A stretch of DNA of 31,844 nt from a virus. Where the stretch lies: positions 1 through 31,844 of IMG/VR virus record IMGVR_UViG_3300007541_000105; one strand, given 5' to 3'. Below the pieces are notes generated by a model. The model searched no databases. It had not been told where the DNA came from and worked only from the letters and a program-made list of their open reading frames with translations. The position numbers and the translations under genes are program-made. Positions within the stretch are counted from its first letter, which is position 1; each line of letters begins with the position of its first letter. This document shows positions 3,142 to 24,700 of the stretch, in pieces.

Positions 3142-3543
3142 ATGCCAATAGAGCGTGTTAAATCTGGATTTAGGGATATAAGCCTTTCTTTAAAAAGAAA
3201 TCCATTGACAAAAGATATAGTTGTTTTGAGAGATCAAGATGCTATAGTACGCTCTATTAAAAATTTAATATTCACATCAAAGGGTGAAAAATTTTTTGAA
3301 CCAGAAATAGGTTCTTTAGTAAATCGACTACTATTTGAAAATATTACCCAAGACTTAGTTAATGATATAAAAAGACAAATTGAAATTGTTATAAAGAATA
3401 ATGAGCCTAGAGTAAAAATAATAGATGTAGTCGTAAAACCAAATTATGATTTAAACCAACTAAATGTAAACATTGAATACTTAATTGTTGGTATTGATTC
3501 TCCTCCTCAGCAATTATTATTCATATTACTACCAACAAGATAA
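3142..3543 (+). CDS. 25: Baseplate wedge subunit gp25
   Basis: At 133 residues this matches the T4 gp25 / GPW_gp25 family in length and pattern. It has an N-terminal arm with PLTKDIVVLRDQDAIVRSIK (21-40), the segment LIFTSKGEKFFEPEIGSLV (42-60), and the core motif EPRV at 88-91 followed by a beta hairpin. In T4 and related contractile systems gp25 is part of the wedge core (with gp6 and gp7). It forms the strand-sharing collar from which the sheath begins to assemble. The family's EPR motif is intact. It is the first gene after the late promoter, and its TAA is directly followed by the ATG of gp6 with no spacer, so the two are coupled. Confidence 0.92.
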   Translation: MPIERVKSGFRDISLSLKRNPLTKDIVVLRDQDAIVRSIKNLIFTSKGEKFFEPEIGSLVNRLLFENITQDLVNDIKRQIEIVIKNNEPRVKIIDVVVKPNYDLNQLNVNIEYLIVGIDSPPQQLLFILLPTR

Positions 3544-5451
3544 ATGTCATTAGTTAACGTATCATCACTAGACTTCAATGATATACGTGAGTCTATCAAA
3601 AGTTTTTTAAGAGCTGATGGTAGATTCACAGATTATGATTTCGAAGGATCTAACTTTAGAGTTCTTTTAGATACTTTAGCGTACAACACTTATATTAGCT
3701 CTTATAATGCTAATATGTTGACTAATGAAGTGTTCTTGGATGGAGCAACTCTAAGAGAGAATGTAGTATCTATTGCAAGAAACATTGGTTATTTACCAAG
3801 ATCCGTTAGATGCTCCAAAGCAAAAGTATCTTTTTATGTTGATTTGACAGAATATGATCAAAATCCAATTTCAGTAATTGTAAAAAAGGGTATCATAGCT
3901 TCTTCATCCGATGGTACTCTCTTGAATACTTTTGTTTACTCAATTCCAGACGATATTAGATCAAGAGTATCTGGTAAATTGGCGGAATTTGTAGATGTTG
4001 ATATTTTTGAAGGTACTTATATTGAAGAATTTTTTACTGTAGATTCTCTTAGTAAAACTCAAAGATTTATATTAAAAAACAACAATATAGATACTAACAC
4101 GATAAGAGTAAGTGTAAAAGATAGTAAAACTAGTAACAATTCTATAATCTATAAATTTGCAGATAATATTACAAATGTAAGTTCTTCAGATAAAGTATTC
4201 TTTATTAATGAAATTGAGGATAGTAGATATGAACTAATATTTGGTGATGGTACTTTTGGTAGTGCTTTATCTGATAAAAATTATATAACAGTATCTTATA
4301 TTAAAACCAAGGGTGAAGCTGCAAATGGGATCCGAAGTTTTGAATTTAATGGAATATTAACTGATAATAATGGAAATTCACTGGATATTGATGTCCCTAT
4401 ATTGACTACCATTGAGTTTAGTGATTATGGAGCACCAATAGAATCAATACCTTCGATAAAAAAATTCGCTCCTAGACTGTATGCAAGTCAAAATAGAGCA
4501 GTAACATCTTCAGATTATGAGACTATAGTTCCTTTAATTTATCCAGAAACAGAATCAGTTGCTGTTTTTGGTGGTGAAGAATTAAGTCCCCCACAATATG
4601 GCAAAGTTTTTATTACAGTAAAACCAAGAAATGGAACATACTTATCAAATTCACTTAAAGATTCTTTAAAACAAAAATTAAAGAAATATTCAGTTGCTGG
4701 AATTTTGCCAGAATTTATTGATTTAAAATACCTTTATATTGAATACAATACTGCCGTTTACTACAATATAAATCGAGGTTATGCAAATACACTTAAAGAC
4801 CAAATCCAATCTAACATAGAGTTTTATTCAAAATCTAAAGAATTGAATAGTTATGGTTCTAGATTTAAATATAGTAAATTTTTAAAATTGATTGATGATA
4901 CATCAGATGCCATAACATCAAATATCACATCAATGTCAATTAGAAGAGATCTAAAAATAAATGAAGGTACAAATACACAGTATGAAATTTGTTTTGGTAA
5001 TTCTTTTTATATAAAAAGAAAAACAGGTTACAATATAAAATCAAGTGGGTTTAGTGTTAGTGATATTTCTGGAGTTGTATATTTGAGCGATAGACCAATA
5101 GATGATACTAATGGAGATCTTTTTATATTCAGATTAACGTCAAAGAATGATCCAGTAATTGTAAAAAATAAAGTAGGAAATATAAACTATAGAACTGGGG
5201 AGATCAATTTAAATTACTTAAATATTATATCTACAACTAAATTAGATCCTGCTGGAAATAGAATAATACAATTATCAGCTATTCCAGAATCAAATGATAT
5301 TATAGGAAAACAAGATTTGTATTTACAATTAGACACAACATCTTCAACTTTAAATTTAATAAACGACACCATCAGTTCTGGAACTGATCTGTCTGGATCA
5401 GGATATATAGTTACATCTAGTTATTTAAACGAAGACTTAATAAGAATATAA
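3544..5451 (+). CDS. 6: Baseplate wedge subunit gp6
   Basis: The 635-residue product starts with the characteristic gp6 segment: FLRADGRFTDYDFEGSNFRV (21-40), then LLDTLAYNTYISSYNANMLT and NEVFLDGATLRENVVSIARN. This is the gp6/J-type wedge signature. A GDGTFG turn near residue 235 and the later SLYAS/SSDYETI-type segment also fit the family. The length is close to T4 gp6 (660 residues). gp6 forms the inner ring of the baseplate and bridges wedges around the hub. The last 140 residues (from about 495) are beta-rich and more divergent. It lies directly between gp25 and the gp7-position giant, as in T4 where 6 and 7 are adjacent. Confidence 0.93.
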   Translation: MSLVNVSSLDFNDIRESIKSFLRADGRFTDYDFEGSNFRVLLDTLAYNTYISSYNANMLTNEVFLDGATLRENVVSIARNIGYLPRSVRCSKAKVSFYVDLTEYDQNPISVIVKKGIIASSSDGTLLNTFVYSIPDDIRSRVSGKLAEFVDVDIFEGTYIEEFFTVDSLSKTQRFILKNNNIDTNTIRVSVKDSKTSNNSIIYKFADNITNVSSSDKVFFINEIEDSRYELIFGDGTFGSALSDKNYITVSYIKTKGEAANGIRSFEFNGILTDNNGNSLDIDVPILTTIEFSDYGAPIESIPSIKKFAPRLYASQNRAVTSSDYETIVPLIYPETESVAVFGGEELSPPQYGKVFITVKPRNGTYLSNSLKDSLKQKLKKYSVAGILPEFIDLKYLYIEYNTAVYYNINRGYANTLKDQIQSNIEFYSKSKELNSYGSRFKYSKFLKLIDDTSDAITSNITSMSIRRDLKINEGTNTQYEICFGNSFYIKRKTGYNIKSSGFSVSDISGVVYLSDRPIDDTNGDLFIFRLTSKNDPVIVKNKVGNINYRTGEINLNYLNIISTTKLDPAGNRIIQLSAIPESNDIIGKQDLYLQLDTTSSTLNLINDTISSGTDLSGSGYIVTSSYLNEDLIRI

Positions 5452-5455
5452 AAAC

Positions 5456-8400
5456 ATGAAAAATAGAGTACAGATTCAAAATTTAGTCACAGATCAGCAA
5501 CCATCTTATGTAAAAGAGTCTTATTCAGACTTTATACAACTTCTGAAGGATTATTATAGGTCCTTAGAGTTTTCTGGTGGTCCAAAAAATATTCTTAATA
5601 ATATCGATGATTATATAAAACTAGAAAATATATCTGAGCTTATATACTATACAGAATTATCTTCAGACATTACTACAGATTCAAAATCAATAACTGTTAC
5701 CAATACAGATGGATTTCCATCAAAAAATGGTTTTATTAAAATTGATGATGAGATTATATTCTATGATAGAAAAACCAAGACAGAATTTTTGGGGTGTCAG
5801 AGAGGATTTAGTGGCATAACAGATTATAGCAAAAATAATTTTAAATTTTCTACTTCATTTAAAAGTAAGCATGTAGCAAATACTGTCGTATACAATTTAA
5901 ATGCATTATTATTATTCGAATTATATAAAAAATTCAAATCACAATATACTCCAGGATTTGAAGAGATTGATTTCTATCAAGAATTAAATGAAAAAATATT
6001 AGTATCTAGAATTAAAGATTTTTATTCTTCAAGAGGAACAGATAAGTCTTTTGAAATATTATTTAATATTGTATGGGGAGTAAACAGCAAAATAATAAAA
6101 CCAAGAGACTACATAATTCAATCTTCAGATGCTGACTATAGAATAACTAGAAAGATTGTTGTTGAGGCATATGAAGGAAATCCTTTAGATCTTGCTGGAA
6201 GAACTTTATTTGAAGATGTGAATGGTGTAGATAAAAGTGCTTTTGCTACTATCATATCTTCAGAGCTTGTTATTAGTGATGGTGTAGAATATTATTCTTT
6301 AACATTAGATTATAATCCAGATGTAGAGTCATTTAATTTTTCTGTTCATAGTAAAACAAAGACCACCGACAATTCTTCTGCTGGACAAACATATCTAGAC
6401 GTAGATTCTACTTTGGGATTTGCGGATTCTGGTTCTATTGAATTCTACGACAATGGTGTTTTAATTGTAGTAGAATATAATGGAAAGAATGATAAGCAAT
6501 TTTTTAATTTATCTTTACCAATTAATTTAGCGTCTGGTACTAATATATTAGATAATAAATTTGCATATTCATTTAATGATAATAATGAGATAATAAAAGT
6601 AAGAGTAAAGGGTGTTCTTGGAGATATTAATTATGATAGAGAAGAAACTTACTTTTATGAAGATGGTGATAATGTTAACATTACTTCATTGGGTAAAGAA
6701 AGTGATGAGAAAATACATACTACTTGGTTTTTAAATACTTCTCCAAAATATAATGTTAAATCTTTATTTAAAGTCACAGAAAAACTTAATGGAATTTCTC
6801 AATATAGAGTAGAAACTTTTGACGATAATATTTTTAGGGCAGGAGATACTTTTACATTAGTAAGTAGTAGTGGAGAACAGTTTAGTAGTGTCGTTATAAG
6901 TTTTTCAAATACAAACGTATTTGATATTAATGTAACTTCATTTCTGAATCTGAATAAAAAATATGTTATTAAAAGAAATATTTCCAAGCCAACATTTCTT
7001 TTTAATTCCAATTTAAATATAATTTCTAGTAACGTTCAAAATGTTTATATTGATAAAGATGATACTTATGTAACATCAACACAATTACCAAGTTACTTAT
7101 CGAGAAACATTGGGGATAATACATTAACTGTAAAATTTTCGGCATCTTTACCAACTCCAAGCGAAGAGTTGATAATTGGAAATCACCCCTTTATTACTGG
7201 AGATTCTGTATACTATAGTTATGATGGTAATTTTGGGTTCAATTTACCAGAAGGTCAGTATTTTGTAAAGAGAGTTAGTGATAGTACTATAAAATTAGCT
7301 TCCAGTAGATCAAATATTAGATCAGAGAAATTCTTAGAATTATTTGGGACAGCAACTAATAATAAATTAATATTATCAAAATTTTATAATAAATCATTAT
7401 ACCAACAAAATATAATAAGAAAATATAGTAAACCAGTAAACGAAGCACCAATTGCAGAAAAAATTACAGTTCCTGGTGCTATTGGATGCTTTTTAAATGG
7501 TGTAGAATTATTAAATTATAAGTCTACAGATACTGTTTTTTATGGACAAATCGTAGATGTCATTCCCTCCTCTCCAGGAGATTCTAACTATGATGTTATA
7601 AATCCACCAAAAATAGAGATTATTGATAATGTTGGTTCAGGAGGTTCCTCTGGGTTCGGAACAGATGCTGTTGTAACTGCTAACGTTAGGGGAGTATTAA
7701 AGCGAGTTGATGTAATAGATCCTGGATTTGGATATGAATCAGAACCCATTGTTACGATTAGTGGTGGAAATGGTTTTGGTGCAAAAGTAAAGTGTAATTT
7801 AACAAGTAAAAAGAATGAAATATTATTTAATACTTCAAGTCTATATAATCAATTAGATTTAGATACTGGAACTATAGATTTTAAAAAATTTAATAGATTT
7901 AAAAATTTTGAGGCAATTGTTTACAATACTCTTGGTCAAGATGCAATTGGTGGATTAGTAAACGGATCAATTTATTATGTTGTTTCATATGATGGTATAA
8001 CTGCAAACTTATATAATAGTTTTGAAGAATCTGTTTCTGGAATAAACACCATAACATTCTCATCTTATGGAGATGGTATTCATAAATTCACATCAGTATC
8101 TTCAAAAAATATTATATCTTCTGTTGATGTTTTAGACTCTGGATCAAATTATACCAATAAAATTTTATACTTCGATTCAACAAATATTAGGAAAAATTTT
8201 GATGTTATTGGTATAAAAAATCATGGATTTTTAGACAAAGAAATAGTAATTTTTAACAGCGATGGGGTTCTTCCTACGGGATTGTCATCTACATCAGAAT
8301 ATTATGTCAAAAGAATAAATGAAAACGAATTCAAAGTATATGAAGTACTATCAACAGAACTTGGAAGAGATTTTAATTATAATAATAAATTAAATGTTAT

Positions 8401-11400
8401 ATTTTCGGACTTTGGAAGTGGGCAGCATAGAGTATCATATACTCCAATAAGTATAAAAGTTGAAGCTCCTATAGGAATAAACACTGTTGGCAGTCAATCA
8501 TTTACTGCAAAATTAAATCCAATTTTTGGTGGTGAAATTTTTTCAACTTCTGTAAAAAATCCTGGTCGCAATTATGGAGATAATTCCATTATTAACTATA
8601 ACAGGAAACCAACTATTAATTTATATAATGGGGAAAATGCAAAACTTTTACCAACAGTTTCTAGTCAGGGAAAAATTATTGGTGTAACAGTTATTGATGG
8701 TGGTTCTAATTATAATTCTGCGCCAATATTAAAAATCAATGGCGATGGATTTAATGCAGTTTTAACTGCTATTATAGTAAATGGAAGAATAGAATCAGTT
8801 ACAGTTTTAAATAGTGGTTTTGGGTATACAAAGAACACTTCCATAGAAGTTATATCTAATGGATTTGGAGCATCTTTTGATGTTAATATCCAGACATGGA
8901 CAATAAACTTGGTAGAAAAACTTTTTGATACAGAATCAATAAGCGTTGATGATGGAATAATTTATGAATCTAAAGATATTTCTAAAGAATTAGCTTATGG
9001 TCATGGATTTGCGTCAAGAGGAATTAGAGAGCAATGTTTAGCATCATCTTTAGATAATGATGGGAATCCAATATTTAAACAAGACTTATTAAATGACAAC
9101 GATACTATTAAATATCACTCTCCTATAATTGGATGGGCATATGATGGAAATCCAATATATGGTCCATATGGGTATGCGAATATTGAAGGAGGTCCTGTTA
9201 AAAAGTTAAGTAGTGGATATGAATTAAGAATATTAGAGCAAAACAGACCACCAGTAAATATTTTCCCAGTTGGATATTTTGTAGAAGATTATATATTTAC
9301 AAATGCAGGGGATTTAGATATCAGTAATGGAAGATTCTGCAAAACTCCAGAGTTTCCAAACGGAGTGTATGCATATTTTTCATCTTTTAATGAAAATAAA
9401 GAATCTACTGGAGACTATAATGGATTTTTGAAACCAAGATTTCCATATGTAATCGGAAATTCTTTTAATTCAAAACCAATACCATTTAACTTTAATGATT
9501 TTTCAAATTTGTCTAGAATATCTGTAGATGATAATTGGTTTAGATTTACATCGTATTTTGGATTTTCTAAAGAAAATACATTCTATGATGGATTAGTAAG
9601 TCCAGAAACATTTAAAAAAGTACTTCCACAAATAACTAATGTTAGTTCTGGTTCTGTTGATAAATTAAATGTTGTTTCTGGAGGTAACAATTATTCTGCA
9701 GGAGATCAAATTTATTTTGAAAATAAAGGAACTTTTGGAAGTAATGCTTTCGCTGTTGTAAAATCTATTTCTGGTCGTTCAATAGGAACTATTACATTTA
9801 ATGAATATCTTTATTCCGATTTAGAATTCTCTAGATTGGACAATAATGGAAATTACTTAGGAATTTCTAGTCATTTTGTAGATATAACAAACAATGATAT
9901 TGCAATTATTGACGATTGCAATATTATATCCACAAAATTTATTGGTCCAGTCAAATCATTAGAAGTTAAAAAGACTAATAAATTAAATATCTTATCAAAT
10001 TTAGGGAATTCTTCTCAAACGGGGATAGTTACATATTTAAAAGTTAATGGTGATTTAAATTCAGTAATATCTGTTGGTGACGTATACAAATCAAACGAAG
10101 AATTATTTAAAGTTTTAAATATTTACAGTAAAAATTATACTATAAAGGTAGAAAGATCTTATGCTGGATCAATTTCTACTACACATTCTCCTGGTGATAC
10201 TATCGAAGAATTACCTAGAAAATTAATAGTTAAGACTGGTTTATCTACAGATAAAACATATAATACAAATTCAGAATACTATTTTAACCCCACAGAATCT
10301 ATAATAATAGGATCAGAAAATTTATTGCAATACTCATATCCAATTTCATCTGAAGAATTACCAGGAACTCCTTGGACAAATGATGCAAATATAACTGGAT
10401 CTATTGATTACTTCCAAAATTCCCCTATAGAAAATAAAAAACAAGCAGTTAAAATCAGTATTGCAGATACTACGGGAAATTCTGATTATTTTCTCTATGG
10501 ATACAATGGAGTAAGTTTGGCAAATGAAGAAAATGTCTTCTCTGTGTTCTTAAAGGGAGAAGAAGGTGGAGAATCTGTCTATTTAATAGTTGATGATGGA
10601 ACTTTATATTATGGTCAATTGGTAACCTTAACTAAAGACTATAGAAGATATACATTCAAACAACTTACTGCTTCTGGAACACATAATTTTAGAGTTGGTA
10701 CTTATGGACCAGGAGGATTTACATTAAATTCATCTCCAACATTTTATGTTTGGGGAGCTCAAGTTGAGAGAGAAAATTTAAGTCTTTACTATGAAAATTA
10801 TGCATCTATTCTTCAACGTTCAGAGGGCAAGAGTGGATTATTATATCTAAATGTTCCAGAATTAGATTTGGTAAAAACAAAAGATACTATATCAAATACA
10901 ATATTCTTACCAAATCATAAATTTATACTGAATGATAAGTTATCTTACACAATAAACGATACTGATACTTCAATAAATGTATCTTATGCAACAACAACAA
11001 AAGATCTTACTGATGTAGATTCTTTGTATGTTGTACCATATTCTAATGATTACATTGGACTTTCAACACAAAAAGTTTCTATAGGTTCTTCTAATCAATA
11101 TGTTGGTATTGGATCTGATTCTATTTTTGAATTAATCAGATATAATAATTATGGTGTGGGAAATAATCAAAAATTAAAAACAAATAGAAATGATGTTATT
11201 AAATCAAATATTGTAAAAAAATATGCTAACATAATAACAAAATCTCCTCACGGATTAGTTGCTGGAAATGAAATAGATTTGTCTTTATCTAGCAATAAAA
11301 TAAGAACAGTAAAAGTATCTTATGATAATCTAGTATACCGAACTTTAATTAATAAGGTAGAATTTACAGCATCTGATGTCAATATTGATTCAAATACAAT

Positions 11401-14400
11401 ATCTATTATAAATCACCATTTTAAAACTGGAGATAAAGTAATTTATAATTCAGAAAATCCATCAATTGGACTAGTAAACTCTGGAATTTACTATATTGTA
11501 AGTATAAATTCTAATGAAATTGGATTATCAAATCAATATTATTCGGAAATATTTGACTTGGATTCATCAATATTGATTGATATACAATCTCAAGAAGATG
11601 GATCAATATCTCTTATAAACCCACAATTAAAGTTTTATAGAAATGAGACTATAATATTTGATTTGTCTGATAGATCACTACAGTATAATGAAGATCCCTC
11701 ATTTACATTTGAATTTTATACCGACGTTAATTTTTCAAATAAATATTATTCTTCTTCAGATAAAACACCTACTTTTAATGTTACTTATGTTGGGGATGTT
11801 GGTTCTGATGGAGCATATGTTCAAATAAAAGTGGATTCCAATACACCAAAAACATTATACTACAGATTAAATCCCATTAATCTACCAAACACTCCAGCAT
11901 CAAAGTTAAATTTAAAAGTAGATTTTAGTAATATAGAAAATTCTAGTTCTATTCAAATTACTGATAGTGTGTATTCTGGTAAATCAATAATATCTGGTAT
12001 AACTACCACATCCTTTACAATACCACTCAATTCCGATCCAGAACAATTAGTATATACTGAAAATGATGGATTAATTTCGTATAGATCTCCCAATGCTATT
12101 GGCCCAATAAATGAAGTTTCTTTAGTATCAAAAGGAAGAAACTATAAGAATTTACCATATGTTACAAATATTGTATCTTCAACAGGTGGTAATGGTGCCA
12201 TTTTCTTACCATTCTCAAATACAATTGGTAAGATAGACACTATCAGATTGTTGAATATTGGACTGGATTATCCTTCAGATAAAACACTAAGACCATCTGC
12301 AATTTTTCCAAGCACATATAAAATAGAACCATTATCAAAATTCAAATCCATAAAAATAGACTCTTTTGGTACAAATTATTTTGTACCTCCACAATTAGTT
12401 GTTCTTGATGGATTTACTGGAAGAGTTAACGATGAAGCACAACTTAAATATGATATTGGAGATACTGAGGTAAGTATAATTAGAAATACTACTGGATTAT
12501 ATAATGTTACTCCCAAAATTATACCAGTAAATAATCCAAATGGTATAAGAATTAGTAATATTTCATTTAATTCTGTTACTAATGATGTTACTGTTGCATT
12601 TGCAGTCACGTTCGCCACTGCTTCGGATTTTCCATTCAATATTGGCGATAATGTAATTATTGAGAATACCAATATCGATTTAAATGTTGGTGGAAAGGGG
12701 TATAATTCTTCTGCTTATGGATATACTTTATTCAAAGTTAAAGAATCTAATCCAAATATTGGTGGAGAATTTCCTTCTATTGTATATAATATTTCTGACG
12801 TACTTAAATCTGGAGAATCACCAGGAATTTATGACGAATTTGAATCCTTTGGTACAGCAACACCAGAATCATATTTTCCAGTATTTAATGTTACTTTAGA
12901 AAAAGGTTCATTTAATGAAAATGAATTAGTTATATATGAAGACAATAGTGGAATTGTGGAAAGATACGATACAAATAATGAATATATAAAAATTAGATCT
13001 GGTAAAAGGTTTAGTATTGGTGATATAATATATGGACAATCTTCAAAAAATTTAGCTTTAATATCATCAGTTTTTGGTTCTGAAGGAGACTATGAAGTAT
13101 CTTCAAGTAGTATAGTTAGAGAGGGATGGAGAAAAGAAACTGGTAAGTTGAATACATTTTTTCAAAGGATGCATGATAATGATTATTATCAATATTTCTC
13201 ATATTCAGTTAAGTCTCCATTAGATTTTACTGTTTGGAATCCTTTGGTTAGCAATTTAACTCATACTGTTGGATTTAAAAAATTCAGTGATTTGGTTTTA
13301 GAACCAGCAGATGATGATCTTACTAGAATGCCAACAGAACAAGATAGTAATGTTGTTATTGCTATATCTGATCTCACACAATCAGTAAACATTAATACAG
13401 TTAAAGACTTTGATATTGCTAGGGAAAAAAGTATTAAAGTAGATGAATCTCTTGTTTCTAATGAGATACTATTTAATTTGCCATTTTTAGCAGAATATAG
13501 GGAATTTATAGGAAATAGAGTTTTAACTATAGATGATATTAGTGATGAGTTTGATTCAAATAAAAAATCTTTTAATCTTTTTGAAAAAAATAATCCAATC
13601 TTTGAGATAGAGTTTGATGCTACAGATTCTAATACAATATTAACATCAGAAAACAATATAAATTTAAAAAATCACTTTTTTGTTAGTGGTGAAGAAGTTG
13701 AATATGTACCTCATAATGGAGATCCAAACAACGGCATACAAATATCCCCAATAAACTGGCCAGGAATAGGAATAACATCAAGATTACCATCCAGATTTTA
13801 TGTAATTAAAGAAGATAATCAAAGAATAAGTATAGCAGCAACAATTGGAGATTCTTTACAATTCAATCCAAATAGAGTGGATATTGTGGGACTTGGAGCA
13901 GGAAACTCTCATAAGATTAGATCAATTGATGCAAATAATAGATTACTCATATCAATAAATGGATCTATCCAATCACCAATTGTTGGATCTGGATATACAA
14001 TAGCAAGTACAAATTCTATTGGCATAGGTGATACAAATATACAGGTAGATACTATTGATTTTATTAAATCTGGAGATTTAATAAAGATTGATAATGAGAT
14101 TTTATTGGTAAAATCTTTGAACGGTCTAACAAATCAGATTAATGTTGAAAGATCAATAGTTGGAACAGAAGAAGAGTCTCATAATTCTAATACAGTAATA
14201 TCAAAATTGTCTGGCAATTTTAACATTGTCGGAAATACTTTAAACTTCTCAGAACCAATATGGGGTAAAATACCAGTAGGACTTGGAACCACTGCAACAT
14301 CAAACAACGAAATTGACTATACTGGATTAACTACATCTTCAAAATTTAGTGGTAGAGTATTTTTAAGGTCTGCTCTTAACTTTTTGTATACTAATGATTT

Positions 14401-17158
14401 TGATAAGGCATATGATAACAATTATGTTTATGATGACATAAGTTCGCAATTTAATGGAATATCAACAACATTTAATCTAAAATATGAAGGAAATAATATT
14501 ACAAACATTCCATATACTAATACTATCATTTTAATTGATGGTATATTCCAAGGACCTCAAAGAATCAGTACTCCAAAATACAGCCTTTATGGTGACTATA
14601 AACTTTTTGTTGATGGTGGTAATTTGAAGGTTGGTTTTAATTTGAATCCAACAGATCCAACGATAACTAAAGATATAAATGTAAATCGTTTACCAAAGGG
14701 TGGGATAATAGTTAGTACAGGATCTACAGAAGGATTTGGTTATCAACCATTGGTAAGTGCTGGCGGAACAGCGTTGATCAACGCACTTGGTGGTCTTGAT
14801 TCTATTGCTATTGGTAACACTGGATCTGGATATAGATCTGGTTTACAAACTGTAAAAGTTGGTTTAAGGACAGATTCATATTCAGTTGTATACGTTGGAG
14901 AAGCTGTTGTCAATGGTGGATATGTAACTTCTGTAAATATAACTAATCCGCCACCAGCAATATACAGTCAATTAAATCCACCAGAAGTTATTTTTGACGC
15001 ACCTTTGAATTACATAAACTTGCCATTAATATACTCCAATGGTTCAAGTGGACTTGGTACAGAAGCAACAGTAGATTTAATTCCAAGCAATGATGGAACA
15101 ATACGTTCTTTTGAAATTAAAAATTATGGATATGGATACAATGAAAACGATACACTTACAGTCTCTATTGGAGGTACTGTTGGTATACAAACATTAACTG
15201 GAATATCAAACTTTAAACCATTTGAATTAAATATTACAGAGGTCTTTAGATCACAATTCTCTGGTTGGAATGTTGGTGAATTTATAGTATTGGATGATGT
15301 ATCAAAGTATTTTAATGGTGTAAGAAGATTATTCCCATTACAAATTGATGGTGAAGATATATCATTCTATGCAAAAACTAGTTCTGGAATTAGTCTACAA
15401 TCGAACTTATTAGTATTTGTAAATGATGTATTACAGACTCCAGGAGAGGGATATCAGTTTAATGGTGGAAGTAGAATTAGATTTTCAGAAGCTCCAAAAG
15501 GACCACTAGTTGGATTTAGTACTGTTGGAGACACAGTAAAGATCCTTGCATATACTGGAACTTCAGAAATTGATGTTAGACTTGTAAGAGTTTTACCAAC
15601 TGTAAAAGTTGGAGATAATGTACAGATTTTTAGTGATATAGATTCAAATCTCACTCAAGAAAAACGACTTGTTGTTGATGTAAAATCGGCTGACACAATT
15701 ATTACTAACAACTATGCCGATGTTGGCGTTGTTTTGGATGAATTGTATGAGAGACCTATTAATTGGATCAAACAAAATGATGATTTGATAATTGATAATA
15801 GCTTTATTGGAAAAGATAGAGTTTACTATGAACCTATAATAAATCCAAGCACAAATATACTCAATAGTATTGCTATATCATCCGAACATGTTTATGTATT
15901 TGACACTAGTCTGTTTGATATTTCAAGGGAAGGTATAGAACCAACAGAACAAAGAAGAATCGAAATAATACCTACAGACGAATTAATTTCTGCAGAAGCA
16001 GAAGCAGTTTTAAATATTGATGGTACAATTGCTAGTATAAATGTTACAAATCCTGGACTTGGATATACTTTAGCACCAATAGTAACAATACAAAAACCAT
16101 TTATTGATGGTTCACAAGCAACTGCTTTTGCATTGATGTCGGGTTCTTCAGTAAATAGTGTAAATGTTAGTTATGCAGGAACAAATTATTATAATGGACC
16201 AATAAAAACATTATCAATTTATTCTCAAGGATCTGGATTCCCACCTTTATTTGGTCAAGAAGTCATAATGACTAAAGCAAAATTAAATACCATAACTGGG
16301 GTTGGAAGAAATGCAACCGTAAACATAACAATTAATCCAGAAACTTATATTGCATCATTAACTGAAATTGACAATAAAGGAGTTAATTATTCTGTCGGTG
16401 ATATATTAGAACTTAAAGTTTATGACAATGTTGGCCTTGCAAATTCTTATAGAAGATGGCCTTTAGAAAATTCTATTAAATTTATTGTAAATGAAATTGA
16501 ACCTCCACCTGTTTTGATTGCACCACCTTGGAGAAATACTGAAGAATCTATTTTTGTTAATTATTATGGTGATTATGGAATAATTGTTGGTTTTGATACA
16601 TCGAGGGTATCGGAATCAACAAATCAATACTTCCTTGGATTAGATTTGTTTGTACCTATGGATTCTGATTTAAGAAAAAATGGAGTATATGATGTTGGTA
16701 TAACAACAGGAGATTATTTTAATATTACAAATACTATATTTGGAGACCCAAATGGAGGAAGAGTTTCTTTACCTTCTGGATTTACTGCACAAACTGGACC
16801 TTTACCAGATCCAGTTGGAATCTCAACTATTTTTACTGATATGGTAGTACAATGCTATGACTGGTCAGAAAAAATTGTTACAATACCACCTGGAATATCT
16901 GGATTATCTGTTGGTATAACAACAACAGTTAAAAATGTTGTTGTTATACTGTCAAATTTAGCTCCTGGAGAGAATCCAAGTAATACTGGTTTTGGTAATA
17001 CTGAGTTCTTTGGTGATTATGTTTGGGGTAAAATAGATTTAACAAGAAGACTTAAAGCAAAACCATTTGCTGCTTTTTCTACACTGCAATCTGGTATAGG
17101 CACAAATCCAGTTTTGCGTAGAAAACTTCCATTAAAATATGATGGGTATTTTGTCTAA
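5456..17158 (+). CDS. Giant gp7-position baseplate protein with YHYH and lectin-like domains
   Basis: This single uninterrupted frame encodes 3,900 residues, against about 1,030 for T4 gp7. The N terminus (MKNRVQIQNLVTDQQPSYVK, then a DDYIKL helix and a SRGTDKSFEILF segment near 190-205) matches the start of cyanophage proteins annotated as baseplate wedge initiator. Residues about 1205-1340 form a YHYH domain: YHSPIIGWAYDG (1220-1231), NPIYGPYGY (1232-1240), GRFCKTPEFPNGVYAYF, FPYVIG (1329-1334). Residues about 1621-1785 look like a CBM/lectin-type jelly roll ending FYVWGAQVE. Much of the rest is beta-repeat modules with GxGYxxxP (near 757, 1121, 3123, 3225, 3534) and IKIDDE-type modules (near 94 and 2875). 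It probably builds the wedge and reaches outward, perhaps binding glycans. The gp7 role is inferred from position and N terminus. Confidence 0.8.
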   Translation: MKNRVQIQNLVTDQQPSYVKESYSDFIQLLKDYYRSLEFSGGPKNILNNIDDYIKLENISELIYYTELSSDITTDSKSITVTNTDGFPSKNGFIKIDDEIIFYDRKTKTEFLGCQRGFSGITDYSKNNFKFSTSFKSKHVANTVVYNLNALLLFELYKKFKSQYTPGFEEIDFYQELNEKILVSRIKDFYSSRGTDKSFEILFNIVWGVNSKIIKPRDYIIQSSDADYRITRKIVVEAYEGNPLDLAGRTLFEDVNGVDKSAFATIISSELVISDGVEYYSLTLDYNPDVESFNFSVHSKTKTTDNSSAGQTYLDVDSTLGFADSGSIEFYDNGVLIVVEYNGKNDKQFFNLSLPINLASGTNILDNKFAYSFNDNNEIIKVRVKGVLGDINYDREETYFYEDGDNVNITSLGKESDEKIHTTWFLNTSPKYNVKSLFKVTEKLNGISQYRVETFDDNIFRAGDTFTLVSSSGEQFSSVVISFSNTNVFDINVTSFLNLNKKYVIKRNISKPTFLFNSNLNIISSNVQNVYIDKDDTYVTSTQLPSYLSRNIGDNTLTVKFSASLPTPSEELIIGNHPFITGDSVYYSYDGNFGFNLPEGQYFVKRVSDSTIKLASSRSNIRSEKFLELFGTATNNKLILSKFYNKSLYQQNIIRKYSKPVNEAPIAEKITVPGAIGCFLNGVELLNYKSTDTVFYGQIVDVIPSSPGDSNYDVINPPKIEIIDNVGSGGSSGFGTDAVVTANVRGVLKRVDVIDPGFGYESEPIVTISGGNGFGAKVKCNLTSKKNEILFNTSSLYNQLDLDTGTIDFKKFNRFKNFEAIVYNTLGQDAIGGLVNGSIYYVVSYDGITANLYNSFEESVSGINTITFSSYGDGIHKFTSVSSKNIISSVDVLDSGSNYTNKILYFDSTNIRKNFDVIGIKNHGFLDKEIVIFNSDGVLPTGLSSTSEYYVKRINENEFKVYEVLSTELGRDFNYNNKLNVIFSDFGSGQHRVSYTPISIKVEAPIGINTVGSQSFTAKLNPIFGGEIFSTSVKNPGRNYGDNSIINYNRKPTINLYNGENAKLLPTVSSQGKIIGVTVIDGGSNYNSAPILKINGDGFNAVLTAIIVNGRIESVTVLNSGFGYTKNTSIEVISNGFGASFDVNIQTWTINLVEKLFDTESISVDDGIIYESKDISKELAYGHGFASRGIREQCLASSLDNDGNPIFKQDLLNDNDTIKYHSPIIGWAYDGNPIYGPYGYANIEGGPVKKLSSGYELRILEQNRPPVNIFPVGYFVEDYIFTNAGDLDISNGRFCKTPEFPNGVYAYFSSFNENKESTGDYNGFLKPRFPYVIGNSFNSKPIPFNFNDFSNLSRISVDDNWFRFTSYFGFSKENTFYDGLVSPETFKKVLPQITNVSSGSVDKLNVVSGGNNYSAGDQIYFENKGTFGSNAFAVVKSISGRSIGTITFNEYLYSDLEFSRLDNNGNYLGISSHFVDITNNDIAIIDDCNIISTKFIGPVKSLEVKKTNKLNILSNLGNSSQTGIVTYLKVNGDLNSVISVGDVYKSNEELFKVLNIYSKNYTIKVERSYAGSISTTHSPGDTIEELPRKLIVKTGLSTDKTYNTNSEYYFNPTESIIIGSENLLQYSYPISSEELPGTPWTNDANITGSIDYFQNSPIENKKQAVKISIADTTGNSDYFLYGYNGVSLANEENVFSVFLKGEEGGESVYLIVDDGTLYYGQLVTLTKDYRRYTFKQLTASGTHNFRVGTYGPGGFTLNSSPTFYVWGAQVERENLSLYYENYASILQRSEGKSGLLYLNVPELDLVKTKDTISNTIFLPNHKFILNDKLSYTINDTDTSINVSYATTTKDLTDVDSLYVVPYSNDYIGLSTQKVSIGSSNQYVGIGSDSIFELIRYNNYGVGNNQKLKTNRNDVIKSNIVKKYANIITKSPHGLVAGNEIDLSLSSNKIRTVKVSYDNLVYRTLINKVEFTASDVNIDSNTISIINHHFKTGDKVIYNSENPSIGLVNSGIYYIVSINSNEIGLSNQYYSEIFDLDSSILIDIQSQEDGSISLINPQLKFYRNETIIFDLSDRSLQYNEDPSFTFEFYTDVNFSNKYYSSSDKTPTFNVTYVGDVGSDGAYVQIKVDSNTPKTLYYRLNPINLPNTPASKLNLKVDFSNIENSSSIQITDSVYSGKSIISGITTTSFTIPLNSDPEQLVYTENDGLISYRSPNAIGPINEVSLVSKGRNYKNLPYVTNIVSSTGGNGAIFLPFSNTIGKIDTIRLLNIGLDYPSDKTLRPSAIFPSTYKIEPLSKFKSIKIDSFGTNYFVPPQLVVLDGFTGRVNDEAQLKYDIGDTEVSIIRNTTGLYNVTPKIIPVNNPNGIRISNISFNSVTNDVTVAFAVTFATASDFPFNIGDNVIIENTNIDLNVGGKGYNSSAYGYTLFKVKESNPNIGGEFPSIVYNISDVLKSGESPGIYDEFESFGTATPESYFPVFNVTLEKGSFNENELVIYEDNSGIVERYDTNNEYIKIRSGKRFSIGDIIYGQSSKNLALISSVFGSEGDYEVSSSSIVREGWRKETGKLNTFFQRMHDNDYYQYFSYSVKSPLDFTVWNPLVSNLTHTVGFKKFSDLVLEPADDDLTRMPTEQDSNVVIAISDLTQSVNINTVKDFDIAREKSIKVDESLVSNEILFNLPFLAEYREFIGNRVLTIDDISDEFDSNKKSFNLFEKNNPIFEIEFDATDSNTILTSENNINLKNHFFVSGEEVEYVPHNGDPNNGIQISPINWPGIGITSRLPSRFYVIKEDNQRISIAATIGDSLQFNPNRVDIVGLGAGNSHKIRSIDANNRLLISINGSIQSPIVGSGYTIASTNSIGIGDTNIQVDTIDFIKSGDLIKIDNEILLVKSLNGLTNQINVERSIVGTEEESHNSNTVISKLSGNFNIVGNTLNFSEPIWGKIPVGLGTTATSNNEIDYTGLTTSSKFSGRVFLRSALNFLYTNDFDKAYDNNYVYDDISSQFNGISTTFNLKYEGNNITNIPYTNTIILIDGIFQGPQRISTPKYSLYGDYKLFVDGGNLKVGFNLNPTDPTITKDINVNRLPKGGIIVSTGSTEGFGYQPLVSAGGTALINALGGLDSIAIGNTGSGYRSGLQTVKVGLRTDSYSVVYVGEAVVNGGYVTSVNITNPPPAIYSQLNPPEVIFDAPLNYINLPLIYSNGSSGLGTEATVDLIPSNDGTIRSFEIKNYGYGYNENDTLTVSIGGTVGIQTLTGISNFKPFELNITEVFRSQFSGWNVGEFIVLDDVSKYFNGVRRLFPLQIDGEDISFYAKTSSGISLQSNLLVFVNDVLQTPGEGYQFNGGSRIRFSEAPKGPLVGFSTVGDTVKILAYTGTSEIDVRLVRVLPTVKVGDNVQIFSDIDSNLTQEKRLVVDVKSADTIITNNYADVGVVLDELYERPINWIKQNDDLIIDNSFIGKDRVYYEPIINPSTNILNSIAISSEHVYVFDTSLFDISREGIEPTEQRRIEIIPTDELISAEAEAVLNIDGTIASINVTNPGLGYTLAPIVTIQKPFIDGSQATAFALMSGSSVNSVNVSYAGTNYYNGPIKTLSIYSQGSGFPPLFGQEVIMTKAKLNTITGVGRNATVNITINPETYIASLTEIDNKGVNYSVGDILELKVYDNVGLANSYRRWPLENSIKFIVNEIEPPPVLIAPPWRNTEESIFVNYYGDYGIIVGFDTSRVSESTNQYFLGLDLFVPMDSDLRKNGVYDVGITTGDYFNITNTIFGDPNGGRVSLPSGFTAQTGPLPDPVGISTIFTDMVVQCYDWSEKIVTIPPGISGLSVGITTTVKNVVVILSNLAPGENPSNTGFGNTEFFGDYVWGKIDLTRRLKAKPFAAFSTLQSGIGTNPVLRRKLPLKYDGYFV

Positions 17159-17168
17159 TAAATAAATA
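17157..17168 (+). promoter_or_regulatory. Late promoter candidate before gp8
   Basis: Two overlapping AATAAATA cores (17157-17164 and 17161-17168) begin at the stop codon of the giant gene. They lie about 30 bases ahead of the gp8 ATG at 17194. Each fits the T4-like late core N-ATAAATA. The 35-base gap is the widest in the structural block, which supports a regulatory use. Confidence 0.5.
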
Positions 17169-17193
17169 AACAAATCTTAGTTAAATACTAGAA

Positions 17194-18777
17194 ATGGCTG
17201 CAATCATAACTGATTATTTGAGAATCAATAATGCCAAATCTTTTGTGGAGAACATTCAGGATCCAAATCAGTCCTATTATACTTTTGTGGGACTTCCAAA
17301 TTCGGATTCTATCAGTCCTTCTTGGGACAGTAATCCAATCTCCCCAAAAGATTGCTTTGATGAAGACAATGCATATTGGGAATCATTAATAGCATTAAAA
17401 AAAATATCTCCAGATGATATAAGATTGGTTGTTAGAAAAATTCAATGGGAGTCTGGAACGATTTATGATTCTTATAGGCATGATATTTCTAGAACAAATC
17501 TTTCAAAACCATCAAATAAAACAAGTTTATATTCATCTAATTTTTATGTGATTAATAGTCAATTTAGAGTTTATATTTGTCTAAACAATGGTATTGATCC
17601 AGAAAATTCAAATGGAAAACCATCTCTAGATGAACCAAATTTTACAGACTTAGAACCAAGGGCTGCTGGAACTAGTGGCGATGGATACGTATGGAAATAC
17701 TTATATACAGTCAATCCTAATGACATTGTTAAATTTGATTCTTTAAATTTTATCCCAGTTCCAATGTCATGGGAATCAAGTTCAGAATATACTAATATTA
17801 GAAATAATGCTTTATCTAGTGGTCAATTAAAAACCATTTTCATAAAAGATAGAGGTCTTTTAGTTGGACCACCAAATACAACATATACCAATGTACCAAT
17901 ATCTGGTGATGGTGAAGGTGCAGAATGTACAATAGTTGTGAACAATGATGCAAAAGTAGAATCAATTACAGTATCTAAAGGTGGAAGTGGATATACTTTT
18001 GGTACTGTGGATTTGATTAGAGGATCTGTTCCTTTGGGAGCATCGTCTCCAAAATTTGATGTCATAATTCCACCAACAAATGGGCATGGATATGATATAT
18101 ACAGAGAGTTGGGATCTACAAACGTATTGTTATATTCCAGAATAGAAAATGATGTTCAGAATCCAGATTTTACTACAGGAACAAAAATATCTAGAATAGG
18201 AATAATTAAAAATCCATTAGCATATAATTCAAGCACAATACTTACAGATGATAGAGTAAGTTCTTTAGACTCCATAAAACTTGTTGGATTGGCACCAAAT
18301 CAAGACGATTATAAGATTACAAGATATGAACCAAATTCAATAATAAGACAGACTATTGGTACAGGTGTTACTGCTGTTGGTAGAGTTCTTTCGTATGATG
18401 CTCAAACAGGAGTTTTAAAATATTGGCAAGATAGATCTATAGTTGGATTTAATACCGATGGTACTATAAATGATAGGCCAACCTATGGATTATCAATAAA
18501 CAAATTTACATCTAATTTATCAGAGGGAGGAGATCTAAAAATTATTGGTGGTTCTAACGACCTATATATTGATAGTGGATTTGGTCAGAATAACAATCCT
18601 GGTATAAGTACTGTCATAAATAATAAAACATATTACTTAGGACAAAATTTTGTAGGTGGCGTTGCTCTACCAGAAGTAGAAAAATACTCAGGAAACATAA
18701 TTTATGTTGATAATAGACCAGCTATTACACGATCCGTGAATCAAAGAGAAGACATTAAAGTTGTATTACAATTCTAA
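17194..18777 (+). CDS. 8: Baseplate wedge subunit gp8
   Basis: The 527-residue product carries two gp8 landmarks. The first is SGDGYVWKYLYTVNP near residues 160-174, equivalent to GDGYVWEYLFEIPP in T4 gp8. The second is a C terminus ending IIYVDNRPAITRSVNQREDI (502-521) then KVVLQF, equivalent to T4 MIYMENRPPII...INILFTF. In T4 gp8 is a dimeric wedge protein that helps hold gp7 and gp10. This protein is about 190 residues longer than T4 gp8 (334). Part of the excess is a beta-repeat module, VESITVSKGGSGYTFGTVDL (about 251-270), of the kind found in the neighbouring giant proteins. It follows a late-promoter-like site and precedes the DUF4815 gene by 14 bases. Confidence 0.9.
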   Translation: MAAIITDYLRINNAKSFVENIQDPNQSYYTFVGLPNSDSISPSWDSNPISPKDCFDEDNAYWESLIALKKISPDDIRLVVRKIQWESGTIYDSYRHDISRTNLSKPSNKTSLYSSNFYVINSQFRVYICLNNGIDPENSNGKPSLDEPNFTDLEPRAAGTSGDGYVWKYLYTVNPNDIVKFDSLNFIPVPMSWESSSEYTNIRNNALSSGQLKTIFIKDRGLLVGPPNTTYTNVPISGDGEGAECTIVVNNDAKVESITVSKGGSGYTFGTVDLIRGSVPLGASSPKFDVIIPPTNGHGYDIYRELGSTNVLLYSRIENDVQNPDFTTGTKISRIGIIKNPLAYNSSTILTDDRVSSLDSIKLVGLAPNQDDYKITRYEPNSIIRQTIGTGVTAVGRVLSYDAQTGVLKYWQDRSIVGFNTDGTINDRPTYGLSINKFTSNLSEGGDLKIIGGSNDLYIDSGFGQNNNPGISTVINNKTYYLGQNFVGGVALPEVEKYSGNIIYVDNRPAITRSVNQREDIKVVLQF

Positions 18778-18791
18778 ATTCCGTTAAAATC

Positions 18792-21700
18792 ATGCCACAA
18801 GAAACAAATTTAAATATATCTCCATATTTTGATGATTATGATCCTTTGAAAGGATTTCATAAAGTTCTTTTTAAACCAGGTTTCCCTATACAATCAAGAG
18901 AACTTACAACTTTACAGTCTGTTTTACAAAATCAAATTGAACAAATTGGAACACACTTGTTCAAAGAAGGGTCTGTAGTTATTCCTGGAAACTATTCTTA
19001 TAACAACGAATTAAATTGTGTAGAGGTAGAAAGTCAGTATTTAGGAACAAATTTAGAAACATTTAGAAATAGTTTAACTGGGGTTACAATTAGAGGTCAA
19101 AATTCAAATATAAAAGCTAAAATAGTTGATACCCTTGGAGTCGAGTATTCAGATAGAGGATATGTAAGTTTATACATAAATTATATCTCAACAGGAAATG
19201 ATAATAAGACAGTATTTGATAATAATGAATTACTAATCCTAGAACAGAATTTAAATACAAATTCCGCTGTATTTCAGCAGGGTCAAGCATTTACAACTAC
19301 AGCACCAGAACAAGCAACTTCTGTAGGATCTGCTGTTTTTTTGGAGGAAGGAATTTATTATTTAAGAGGAACTTTTGTAAAAGTTTTACCACAAACTTTA
19401 ATATTAGAATCTCATGAAAATAATCCCACATATAGAGTTGGATTTGAAGTTTTTGAGAATATTGTAACTAGCGGACAAGATAGTTCTTTAACTGATAATG
19501 CTTCTGGATTTAATAATTATGCAGCTCCTGGAGCAGATAGATTACAAATAAGAGCAATTTTAGCAAAAAGACCAGTTGAGATTGATAAGCATGAAAATTT
19601 TGTTGAGCTTTTTATTGTAACATCTGGAGTTGTTGAAAGAGCATATAATAGATCAATTTACAATGACATTGGAAATGAACTTGCAAGAAGAACATATGAG
19701 CAGGCTGGTGATTTTTATGTTAAAGCATTTTCAGTGGCTGCAAAGGAAACTTTAGATGATAGAAAAGGTAATAATGGTGTATTTAAAAAAAGTCAATTAA
19801 CTAAAAGTGGAAATATTCCAAGAGAGAGTCTTGGTACATATAAGATTTCTCCTGGAAAAGCTTATGTTAAGGGTTATGAAATAGAATTTACATCTTCAAC
19901 ATATTTGGATTTTGAAAAACCAAGGACAACGAATACTTTAGAAAATCAATCAATAAACTATTTTACTGGTCCAACATTATCTCTGAATAGGGTTGTTGGT
20001 GCTCCAAGAATTGGATTTAGTACATCGTCCATAATTAGCTTAAGAGATAGTAGAATTGGAGTAGATAAATTTGTTGCTAGTGGTAAAGAAATAGGTATAT
20101 CAAGAATATATGATTATGCTTTGGAAGGAGGATCTTATGATACTTCAATTCAAGAATTAAATACTTGGGATATATCCTTGTATGACATCCAATATTATAC
20201 TGAATTAAATCTCAATTCTGCTATTTCGATTTCAACCCCCACTTATATTGAAGGTAAATCTAGTGGCGCAAATGGTCACCTAAGATTTGATAGTACAACT
20301 GGTATTGCAACTGTTTATGGCACTAGAGGAAAATTTATAAAAGGTGAAAAACTAGTTTTAAATGGTGTAGATAGCAATCGAATTATTAATAATGTTATTG
20401 AATACAAAACACTAGATGTAAAATCTTTACATTGTACAATTGGAGTTGGTGAAACTTTTAATGGAGACACTAAACTTTCTACATATAATAATATAGGTCA
20501 AGTTACCGTTGGTGCGGCAGTTGCAAATGTATCTACGGTTGTCTCAGCAGATATTCCATTAAATAAAATATTTAAAGTTGGAGATTATGTATCATTTACA
20601 AATACTGAGTTAGTATCTCCAGAATATAAGACTTATGGAAAAGTAGTAAGTATAGATAACGAATATACAATTAAAATCACAGCAATTACTGCTGTAACAG
20701 GAATAAATTATGGTGCAATGCCTTCTACTGATATTCAATCATTAGATTTTAGTTTAATTGGTGCAAAATTACAATCATCTACAGATAATACATTATATAC
20801 ACCTTTACCAAAAAAATATATTTCTAATGTAGATTTAACAGAATCTGAAATTACGATTAGAAAAGAATTTAATTGTGTAATAAATCAGAATGTCACTAAT
20901 ACAATTCAATGCGAATCAGATGAAGCATTTTTACCATTTGATGAGGAAAGATATGTATTAATAAACTCTAATGGCGATTTTGAAATCTTAACATCAGATA
21001 AGTTTGTATATGGTGCTGGATCAAAATCATTAACAATATATGGAATGACCACTAATGGTCCTGGAAGACTTATAGCAACATTATCAAAAAACAGAGTTAC
21101 TAGTAGGACAAAAACTGATAATAGAACAAATTCTATTATTGTAAATAAATCAAATTTAGTTTCTTCTGGTATAGGAAGCACTACTTTAGATGATGGATTG
21201 GAATATGGAAATTATGGTTATGGTTTGAGGGTTCAAGATAAGGAAATTTGTTTGTTAGAACCAGATGTAATTAGAATATATGGAATTTTTGAATCTACAG
21301 ATACATTTGCTCCAGTATTACCATCAATAGTTATATCAAATTTAAATAGTCAAACTGGAACAGTAAATGATTTGATCATTTCTGAAGTTATTGTCGGTGA
21401 AACTTCGGAAGCTGAGGCAATTTATATTGAAAAAGTTGATTCTTCAAAAATATCAATAGTTTATTTGAGTGATTTGTCATTTATTCCTGGTGAAACTATA
21501 AGAGCACAACAAAGTAATATTTTAGGAACAATTTCAGATATTGGTCAAGGTTCTAAGAATATAACAGATAGATATACCTTAGATTCTGGACAAAGAGACA
21601 CTATTTGCGATTATTCCAGAATTATTAGAAAAGAAAATTCTAAAGCACCAAAAAATCAAGTAAGAATTATTTTTGAATCTGGAGAATTTTCTTCTTCCGA

Positions 21701-24700
21701 AGATGGAGATCTAACTACAGTTAATTCATATTCACAATTCGATTATTGTGATTTATTATCTGTTAAGAACGATGTCAGAACCTCGGACATAATTGATATT
21801 AGACCAAGAGTAGTAGAATTTAACCCATCATCACAATATTCACCATTTGAATTTAATTCAAGGCAATTTTCGGATTCGAATAATTCTGCAAAAAATGTTC
21901 TCGCATCAGATGAATCCATACGTTTAACATACTCACATTATTTGGCAAGGATTGATAAGATATTTTTACTTAAAACTGGAGGATTTCAATTAGTAACTGG
22001 TATTCCTTCTGAAGATCCTTTACCACCGTTACAACTAGAAGATGCCATTGAAGTAGCTACTATATCTATGCCACCATATCTGTGTGATATTGATGATTGT
22101 GAGATAAAATTAAACAAATATAAAAGATATAGGATGGATAATATTGCTCAGTTAGAGCAGAGAATTAGTAATTTAGAGTATTATACAGCATTATCTTTAT
22201 TGGAAACAAAAACAGAATCATTAACAATTCCAGATTCAAATGGATTATCTAGATTTAAATCTGGAATATATGTTGATAATTTTAGTAGCAGAAATACTCA
22301 GATTAAAAGTTCTAGAGTCACTAACAGCATAGATCCAACAAATTTAGAGCTTAGACCTTCACATTTTACTACAGAAATTGATCTAATTCTTGGTTCAAAA
22401 TCATTACTTGGCATTGGAACTATTCCAAGTACAACTGCAGAGTCTGAGTTTGTAACAGATTTAATTGGATCCAATATAAGAAAAGTAGGTCCATTATTGA
22501 TGTTGAACTATGAAGAAGATATTGTAGTTGAAAATCAATTTGCAACAAGAGCAGAAAACGTAACTCCATATCTTGTTACTACTTATAAAGGAACAATTGA
22601 ATTGTTTCCTTCTTCAGATATTTGGATCGATCAAACTAGATTAAGTCCACAAACAATAACATCAGATGATTATACTCAAACCAGACTACAATTAGAATAT
22701 GCAGGATATGATTCACAAACTGGTCTTGGTCCAATTGTTTGGGGTTCTTGGGAAACTACTTGGACTGGATCCACTTCTACAAGTACATCATCAACTTCTA
22801 CAGGTAATTGGAGAAATCAAAGCAATACCAGAAGTGGAAATAGTACTGTTAGAACAGATGTTAGAGATATAACTACAACTACTGTAACCACAACTACACA
22901 AACTGGTTTTGATCAAAGAGATGGTAAGAGATTAAGAGTATCTGAACAAGTTGAGACTAGAAGTGAGGGTGATAGAGTAGTTAATACTTCTGTTATTCCA
23001 TTTATGAGATCTAGGAATATAGAATTTACTGCACAAAGATTTAGACCATTCACAAGATTGTATAGTTTCTTTGATGATCAAGACGTAAATAATTTTATAA
23101 TTCCAAAACTAATTGAAATTAGAATGATTAGGGGAATTTTTGCTCCTGGAGATCTTGTTAGAGGTAGAAATATTGGAAGTAGGGGGAGGTTTGTTCGAGG
23201 AAGAAGACTTTTCTTTGGTAGATCTTTGCCGAGAATTTCTTTTAGAGTAGCAAAGTCAAACCATAGAGTTGGACCAATAACAAATCCTTCAGATGTTTAC
23301 ATTGAAAGTCCATATGATGAAAATTATATAGTTCCAGAAGAATATTCTGGGTCATCTATATTATTAAATGTGGACACTAGATCTTTATCAGAAAATAACC
23401 AATCATTATATAGTGGATTTATTACCCCTGGTATGAGGTTGAGGGGTCCTAATGGAGAAGCGGAAGTAGTAAATGTTAGATTATTTACGGATAGCATTGG
23501 AAGTGTAAGGGGATCATTCTTTATTCCAAATCCAAATGTACCATCAAATCCAAGTTTTGAGGCTGGAACAAAAGTTTTTAGATTAACAAATAGTGAATCC
23601 AATACAACCATTCAAGGACTCGCTACTAGTTACGGAGAAGAGCAATATTTTGCTTCTGGAACTATGAACACGGTTCAAGAAACTATAAGATCTACAAGAA
23701 AACCAAGGTTTGACGTTGTAGAAACTGTAGAAACAAGACCCGCAGAAAATGTTCAAGTAAACACTACAGTAACTACAACTCAAGAACTTAACGTCAGGGT
23801 TATACCAGATCCACCACCACCACCACCACCGCCACCACCAGCACCACCCTCGCCGCCACCAAGATTTCCAGGTAGTCCATTTGCACCTGCAAATCCTACT
23901 CCTGCACGACCACCACTGTCGGTTAATAGACCTTGGTTAACTCAAGCTACGAATCAGGCAAGAAGGCCACAAAGACAAGAAAGAAGACAAGAAAGAAGAC
24001 AAGAAAGAAGACAAGAAAGAAGAGATCCTTTGGCACAATCATTTCTTGTTACTGATGTAAATGGAATGTTTGTAACTCATGTTGATTTATACTTTAGAAC
24101 GGTGGATCCTTTATTGCCAGTAATAATTCAACTAAGACCTATGGTAAATGGATATCCAACAAATGAAGTTTGCCCATTCTCAGAAGTTACTTTAGAACCA
24201 AGATATATTTTTACTAGTGAAGATTCTTTAGAAGCAACACAAGTTTATTTTTCTGCTCCAGTTTACCTAGAAGGATCAAAAGAGTATGCATTAGTTTTGT
24301 TAAGTGATTCAAATGAGTATACTGTTTGGATTTCAAAAATGGGAGAAATTGATGTATCAACATTGGCACAACAAGAATCCAGACAAATTCTTGTTTCACA
24401 ACAACCAAGTTTAGGTTCACTATTCAAATCACAAAATGGATCTACATGGACCGCAAGTCAATATGAAGATCTAAAGTTTACTTTATATTCTGCTAAATTT
24501 AATATTGATTCTCCAGCAAGTATATCATTCTTTAATCCACAGTTAGGTTTGGGTAATGATCAAATAGCAACTTTAGTTCCAGATCCTTTAGAATTTGAAT
24601 CTAGAAAAGTTGTTTTAACAACCACAAATCTAATAGATATTGCATCTTTTAATATTGGAAATACTATTAGGCAACAAGATAATTCTTTTGTTAGGGGAGA

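Follow-up and report, generated by a model that had tools for sequence, protein, structure and literature searches.

The 31,844 nucleotides of viral DNA analysed here (hereafter the window) carry, in the place where T4 has gp7, a frame for a protein of 3,900 residues. The locus raises the question of whether such a protein is a gp7 at all, and what the remainder of so long a chain does on the virion. The reading that we favour, with a probability of about 0.8, is that this is the gp7 of cyanophages, in which a wedge-building core would be followed by a long tail of surface modules, with a CBM4-like insert acting as an adhesin in the present phage.

The frame, its locus and its relatives

The giant gp7 gene (baseplate wedge initiator; positions 5456-17158, plus strand) is a single intact frame that opens with ATG, closes with TAA and is free of internal stops. 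It lies in a gp25-like - gp6 - giant gp7 - gp8 gene order, with the gp25-like gene at 3142-3543, gp6 at 3544-5451 (plus strand; PF21379, E = 2.7e-14; phrog_219) and gp8 at 17194-18777 (plus strand; PF09215, E = 4.1e-12, and PHROG). Downstream of gp8 are genes for a VrlC-type structural protein of 2,574 residues (18792-26516, plus strand), neck proteins, a sheath stabiliser and the terminase small subunit. Together these genes form a baseplate operon of T4-like cyanophage type. Minus-strand open reading frames within the giant gene were short and without support, and no RNA element scored above Rfam gathering thresholds in the window. Positions 1-2000 differed in composition (G+C about 41%, vs about 30% elsewhere in the window). 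The sole long plus-strand gene of that region (1154-1939) codes for a phrog_1574 protein with a weak link to glycosyltransferases, and no Rfam match was found there.

Selection was analysed by comparing the gene with three relatives, two of which share 48-49% identity with it and one 46%. Each of the 13 blocks (300 codons apiece) showed purifying selection, with dN of 0.35-0.68 and dS of about 0.9-1.5 in nearly all blocks, which indicates that the entire frame is translated and used as protein. The intact 11.7-kb frame described in an earlier note on this DNA was thus borne out.

Four relatives (Synechococcus phage B23 and contigs L067, L044 and L081) encode gp7 as two adjacent genes, the second of which begins with a separate ATG near the position that corresponds to residue 2704 (13565-13567, plus strand). 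L067 and L044 share 60% identity, and L081 is distant from both (39%). Such split genes are what one would expect if the long frame were an assembly or sequencing artefact that fused neighbouring genes, but full-length frames in fifty relatives, purifying selection all along the frame and a second contig (L106) whose partial copy of the protein is about 99% identical rule out this explanation. The split genes do indicate that the final ~1,200 residues are able to function as a polypeptide of their own. The same point is also a site of domain variation: immediately before it, an additional domain of about 260 residues is found in 46 of 50 relatives. This domain is absent from the present protein and from L008, L009 and L011, and L004 gave no match to it.

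The protein belongs to a large family. PHROG 2885 ("baseplate wedge subunit", 4,179 positions) matched it with 2543 bits in four stretches. In tblastn searches, for which the protein was divided into two overlapping pieces, residues 1-2733 matched 465 phage records, nearly all from Synechococcus or Prochlorococcus phages and many labelled "baseplate wedge initiator". At least 80% of these residues were found in one place in 93 of the records, and 92% of them could be aligned to isolates. Homologues in isolates include those of Bellamy and SynMITS9220M01 (4,067 residues each), S-SM2 (4,156), P-TIM68 (4,307) and P-SSM2 (5,195), and the 50 full-length relatives from IMG/VR and isolate records (defined by a frame of at least 3,600 residues) ranged from 3,685 to 5,195 residues. 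The earlier note had stressed a size nearly four times that of T4 gp7; the ratio is right, but it is not remarkable, as about 4,000 residues is normal in Kyanoviridae. The giant gp7 proteins of these isolates agree with the present protein in place, length class, N-terminal core, GxGY and HxFxxGD modules and a single YHYH domain; those of the nearest isolates are 35-39% identical to it along most of the chain. They differ from it in having no CBM4-like insert at residues ~1625-1805, and it differs from most relatives in lacking the domain before residue 2704. In size and make-up the protein is therefore ordinary for its family and is unusual only in one lineage-specific insert. A gp7 of the cyanophage type, YHYH and GxGY modules included, is also encoded over 1,834 open residues in a contig filed as a Euryarchaeota MAG (NZRR01000014.1, isolate EAC30), which is probably a misbinned phage contig.

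Virion mass spectrometry had been proposed as a check, and published peptide counts and coverage in effect already provide it for two homologues. The 6,619-residue product of S-SZBM1_208, a neighbour of gp6, was represented by 71 virion peptides (13.5% coverage; PMC9146016), and S-CREM2 ORF122 (1,937 residues) by 91 unique virion peptides (27.2% coverage; PMC10665884). We confirmed the homology of both to giant gp7, including the N-terminal core, GxGY repeats and YHYH domain. S-SZBM1 has three extra structural genes between gp7 and gp8 (14260-19231 of its record); among them, 207 encodes a YHYH protein with an intact motif, and 205 contains GxGY repeats and is also labelled a wedge initiator.

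Relationship of the core to T4 gp7

T4 gp7 (1,032 residues; PDB 5hx2/5iv5) shares the gp6-gp7-gp8 gene order with the present locus. According to one published account, cyanophages and pelagiphages have no T4 gp7, and VrlC stands in its stead (PMC7029224). If so, the gp7 label would be purely positional, and a protein unrelated to T4 gp7 would occupy the site while VrlC assumed the gp7 role. Besides being the reading of that paper itself, this possibility is in line with our single-sequence phmmer search, in which residues 1-1133 had no significant match in PDB and none to T4 gp7. Foldseek found no reliable full-length match in PDB for the model of residues 1-700 taken as a whole. A profile of the same 700 residues, built from 69 sequences, gave a different picture: among 177,635 PDB sequences T4 gp7 ranked first (E = 5e-5) and Klebsiella phage KP1 gp7 second (E = 1.3e-4), with all further matches at E >= 0.12. 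One of the latter, an enterotoxin subunit (E = 0.12), was at chance level and was rejected.

The profile match covers 34 residues, T4 gp7 725-758, at the motif FYSxKGxxxSxxxLFxxLY. The predicted fold of the domain that follows the motif matched the adjoining part of T4 gp7 (760-844, 5iv5_BJ; Z 8.9, 2.5 Å, 84 residues), and the two matches are colinear. This fold match concerns a single domain within the 700-residue model, whose pTM is 0.55, and unrelated beta domains with similar Z also appear among its top VIA-align rows. In addition, predicted residues 167-389 could be superposed on KP1 gp7 708-843 (9f4a_A0; Z 8.6, 8.9 Å, 130 residues, 20% identity). These residues (5954-6622, plus strand), which combine a helical FYxSKGTxxSFxxLF motif with a beta domain, are what we call the gp7 core.

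Judged by the profile and the predicted fold, homology of this core to the C-terminal third of T4 gp7 is well supported. Restriction of the match to ~130 residues is the kind of result that a merely positional label would allow; yet the profile matched solely the two gp7 proteins, colinearly with the fold match, and VrlC is encoded here by a separate gene downstream of gp8. We thus regard an unrelated protein at the gp7 position as improbable. The earlier note had described a gp7-like N terminus. Its homology to gp7 holds, but the matching region is T4 gp7 ~708-844 and not the N terminus of the T4 protein. No counterpart of T4 gp7 residues 1-700 was matched in residues 1-700 of the giant protein, in a search in which weak matches can be missed, and the ~3,500-residue C-terminal extension of the giant protein is without known counterpart in T4. 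The presence of a gp7 core in a cyanophage protein argues against the published statement that cyanophages lack gp7.

Modules of the C-terminal extension

Iterated profiles revealed ten GxGY repeats (E <= 7e-11 each) and one weak partial copy; in a control at a looser cut-off, one match was obtained in 100 shuffles. The repeats, all on the plus strand, occur at residues 742-785 (7679-7810), with another at 881-935, three in tandem at 1022-1148 (8519-8899), and further copies at 2212-2256 (12089-12223), 3181-3253 (14996-15214; the first of these is the weak partial) and 3519-3600 (16010-16255). A second repeat type, HxFxxGDxVxY, was found four times, at residues 576-624 (7181-7327, plus strand), 813-862, 922-971 and 1986-2034; among the proteins of the window, only giant gp7 has it. 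Three small beta-barrel modules are located at residues 70-154 (5663-5917), 1520-1592 (10013-10231) and 2853-2924 (14012-14227), again on the plus strand. The closest solved match of the second module is in the baseplate of phage JBD30 (Z 12.8, 1.7 Å, 82 residues).

Most of these modules are shared with other virion proteins. Four GxGY repeats are present in gp14 and others in gp8 and VrlC, and barrels of the same type occur in gp15 and VrlC, suggesting that both are general building blocks and, by themselves, no pointer to receptor-binding arms. The repeats noticed earlier are therefore real, and number about ten, but they do not mark such arms. In the neck protein (head closure Hc2/gp14, 27596-28987) the four GxGY repeats are in tandem after residue 200, and may serve as neck decoration.

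A YHYH domain (PF14240) was detected at residues 1213-1310 (9092-9385, plus strand; E = 9e-22, 78.4 bits vs a cut-off of 25). The match corresponds to the C-terminal half of the Pfam profile, spanning only positions 85-181 of 193. Exactly one such domain is present in each of the 50 full-length relatives. Cellular YHYH proteins of Verrucomicrobia, Planctomycetes and Bacteroidetes share the HSPxIGWAxDGxPIYGPYGY and NGRFCKTPEFPxGxYAYF blocks with it, but carry, ahead of the HSPxIGW block, a histidine cluster (AHxxxxGxYHYHxxPxxLR) that gp7 does not have. Where YHYHxxPxxLR would be expected, the present protein has YGHGFASRGIR (1181-1191) and the relatives have the consensus YxHxYAPRxLR, so that the signature histidines are down to one. 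The domain named in the earlier note is thus well above the profile cut-off, but its signature motif is lost.

YHYH proteins of jumbo phages have been predicted to be metal-dependent hydrolases with a histidine triad and an aspartate (PMC7824862), and a hydrolase of this kind in gp7 might aid in breaching the cell wall. Conservation of H1221 and D1230 in all 85 relatives, and of H1183 in 80 of them, is consistent with such a function. On the other hand, the segment that holds several histidines in cellular homologues has degenerated to the YxHxYxPRxLR type with one, the Pfam match leaves out the first 84 profile positions, and in S-SZBM1 a separate YHYH protein with an intact motif (SSZBM1_207) is encoded directly 3' of gp7, as if any YHYH activity resided in that protein. 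Because the signature motif is lost, an enzyme at this site of gp7 is unlikely, and we give the hydrolase little credence. In cellular YHYH proteins from Verrucomicrobia and Kiritimatiellia (L097 and L105), an apparent sulfatase domain was seen by eye next in the same frame, a hint that cellular YHYH proteins could act on or near sulfated polysaccharides.

The CBM4-like insert and the role of giant gp7

The one lineage-specific feature of the protein is found at residues about 1625-1805 (10328-10870, plus strand), inside a linker of ~50 residues. Its predicted fold is a CBM4-like jelly-roll beta-sandwich (Z 10.7, 3.4 Å, 135 residues; model pLDDT about 50-79). The predicted beta-sandwich is what it has in common with CBM4 modules; identity is 11%, and no Pfam match was obtained. 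A single-sequence phmmer search of PDB gave nothing significant, and PHROGs yielded a marginal match to a tail protein only (E = 0.027). The predicted model nevertheless supports the lectin-like domain that had been suspected from the sequence.

At the corresponding site (~1,620), 68 of 77 relatives have a linker of 41-56 residues; in seven the site is occupied by another stretch, 120-157 residues long, and in two by a similar insert. By direct search the insert is present in two of the 50 full-length relatives and absent from the other 48; an initial count of four was rejected as an alignment artefact affecting L069 and L077. The direct search also located the insert in 21 further loci, with all strong matches at the same site of the gp7 gene. 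A search of 50,697 deposited phage records gave one weak partial match, to a metagenomic fosmid, and no deposited isolate with the insert was found. A 149-kb contig with the same inserted gp7 carries two photosystem reaction-centre genes, which indicates that the insert lineage infects cyanobacteria.

The CBM4-like domain probably binds a polysaccharide of the host surface, as its modelled fold suggests, and would thus add an adhesin to the baseplate. Tentatively, giant gp7 might serve as a modular platform for display, with ~1,620 as the site at which lineages gain different domains and the CBM4-like adhesin helping to set host range in cyanophages.

A further proposal is that the C-terminal part forms long, flexible receptor-binding arms, which would take the place of long tail fibres in host recognition. 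The predicted lectin-like domain, the variation of module content, module number and length among relatives (homologues range from 1,937 to 6,619 residues) and the virion of S-SZBM1, in which no long tail fibres were seen by TEM or proteomics (PMC9146016) and which has the 6,619-residue homologue, are all compatible with this idea. However, GxGY repeats and small beta-barrels are general virion modules, as described above, nearly the whole length is kept in nearly all 50 relatives, unlike a fast-changing adhesin, and the CBM4-like domain is missing from 48 of them. Receptor binding by giant gp7 is plausible; arms that replace the tail fibres are possible, although we are inclined to doubt them, and we infer rather than observe both their length and a copy number of six.

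We therefore return to a wedge protein with surface modules. Its core homology comes from the profile and predicted fold, and its assembly role and copy number are taken from T4. We came across no baseplate structure from any T4-like cyanophage. By analogy, the N-terminal core (~390 residues) would connect gp6, gp25 and gp8 within each of the six wedges. The other ~3,500 residues are a mostly-beta chain composed of GxGY and HxFxxGD repeats, small tail-type beta-barrels and a degenerate YHYH domain, in numbers that vary by relative, and would be displayed on the baseplate surface. Into a linker of this chain, the lineage of the present phage has received a CBM4-like domain.

Marine T4-like cyanophages are common, and the structure of their baseplates is almost unexplored. 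The largest protein of these baseplates is several times as large as the corresponding T4 protein. Within it, the lineage-specific carbohydrate-binding-like module is a concrete candidate for a role in host recognition, and one open to testing.
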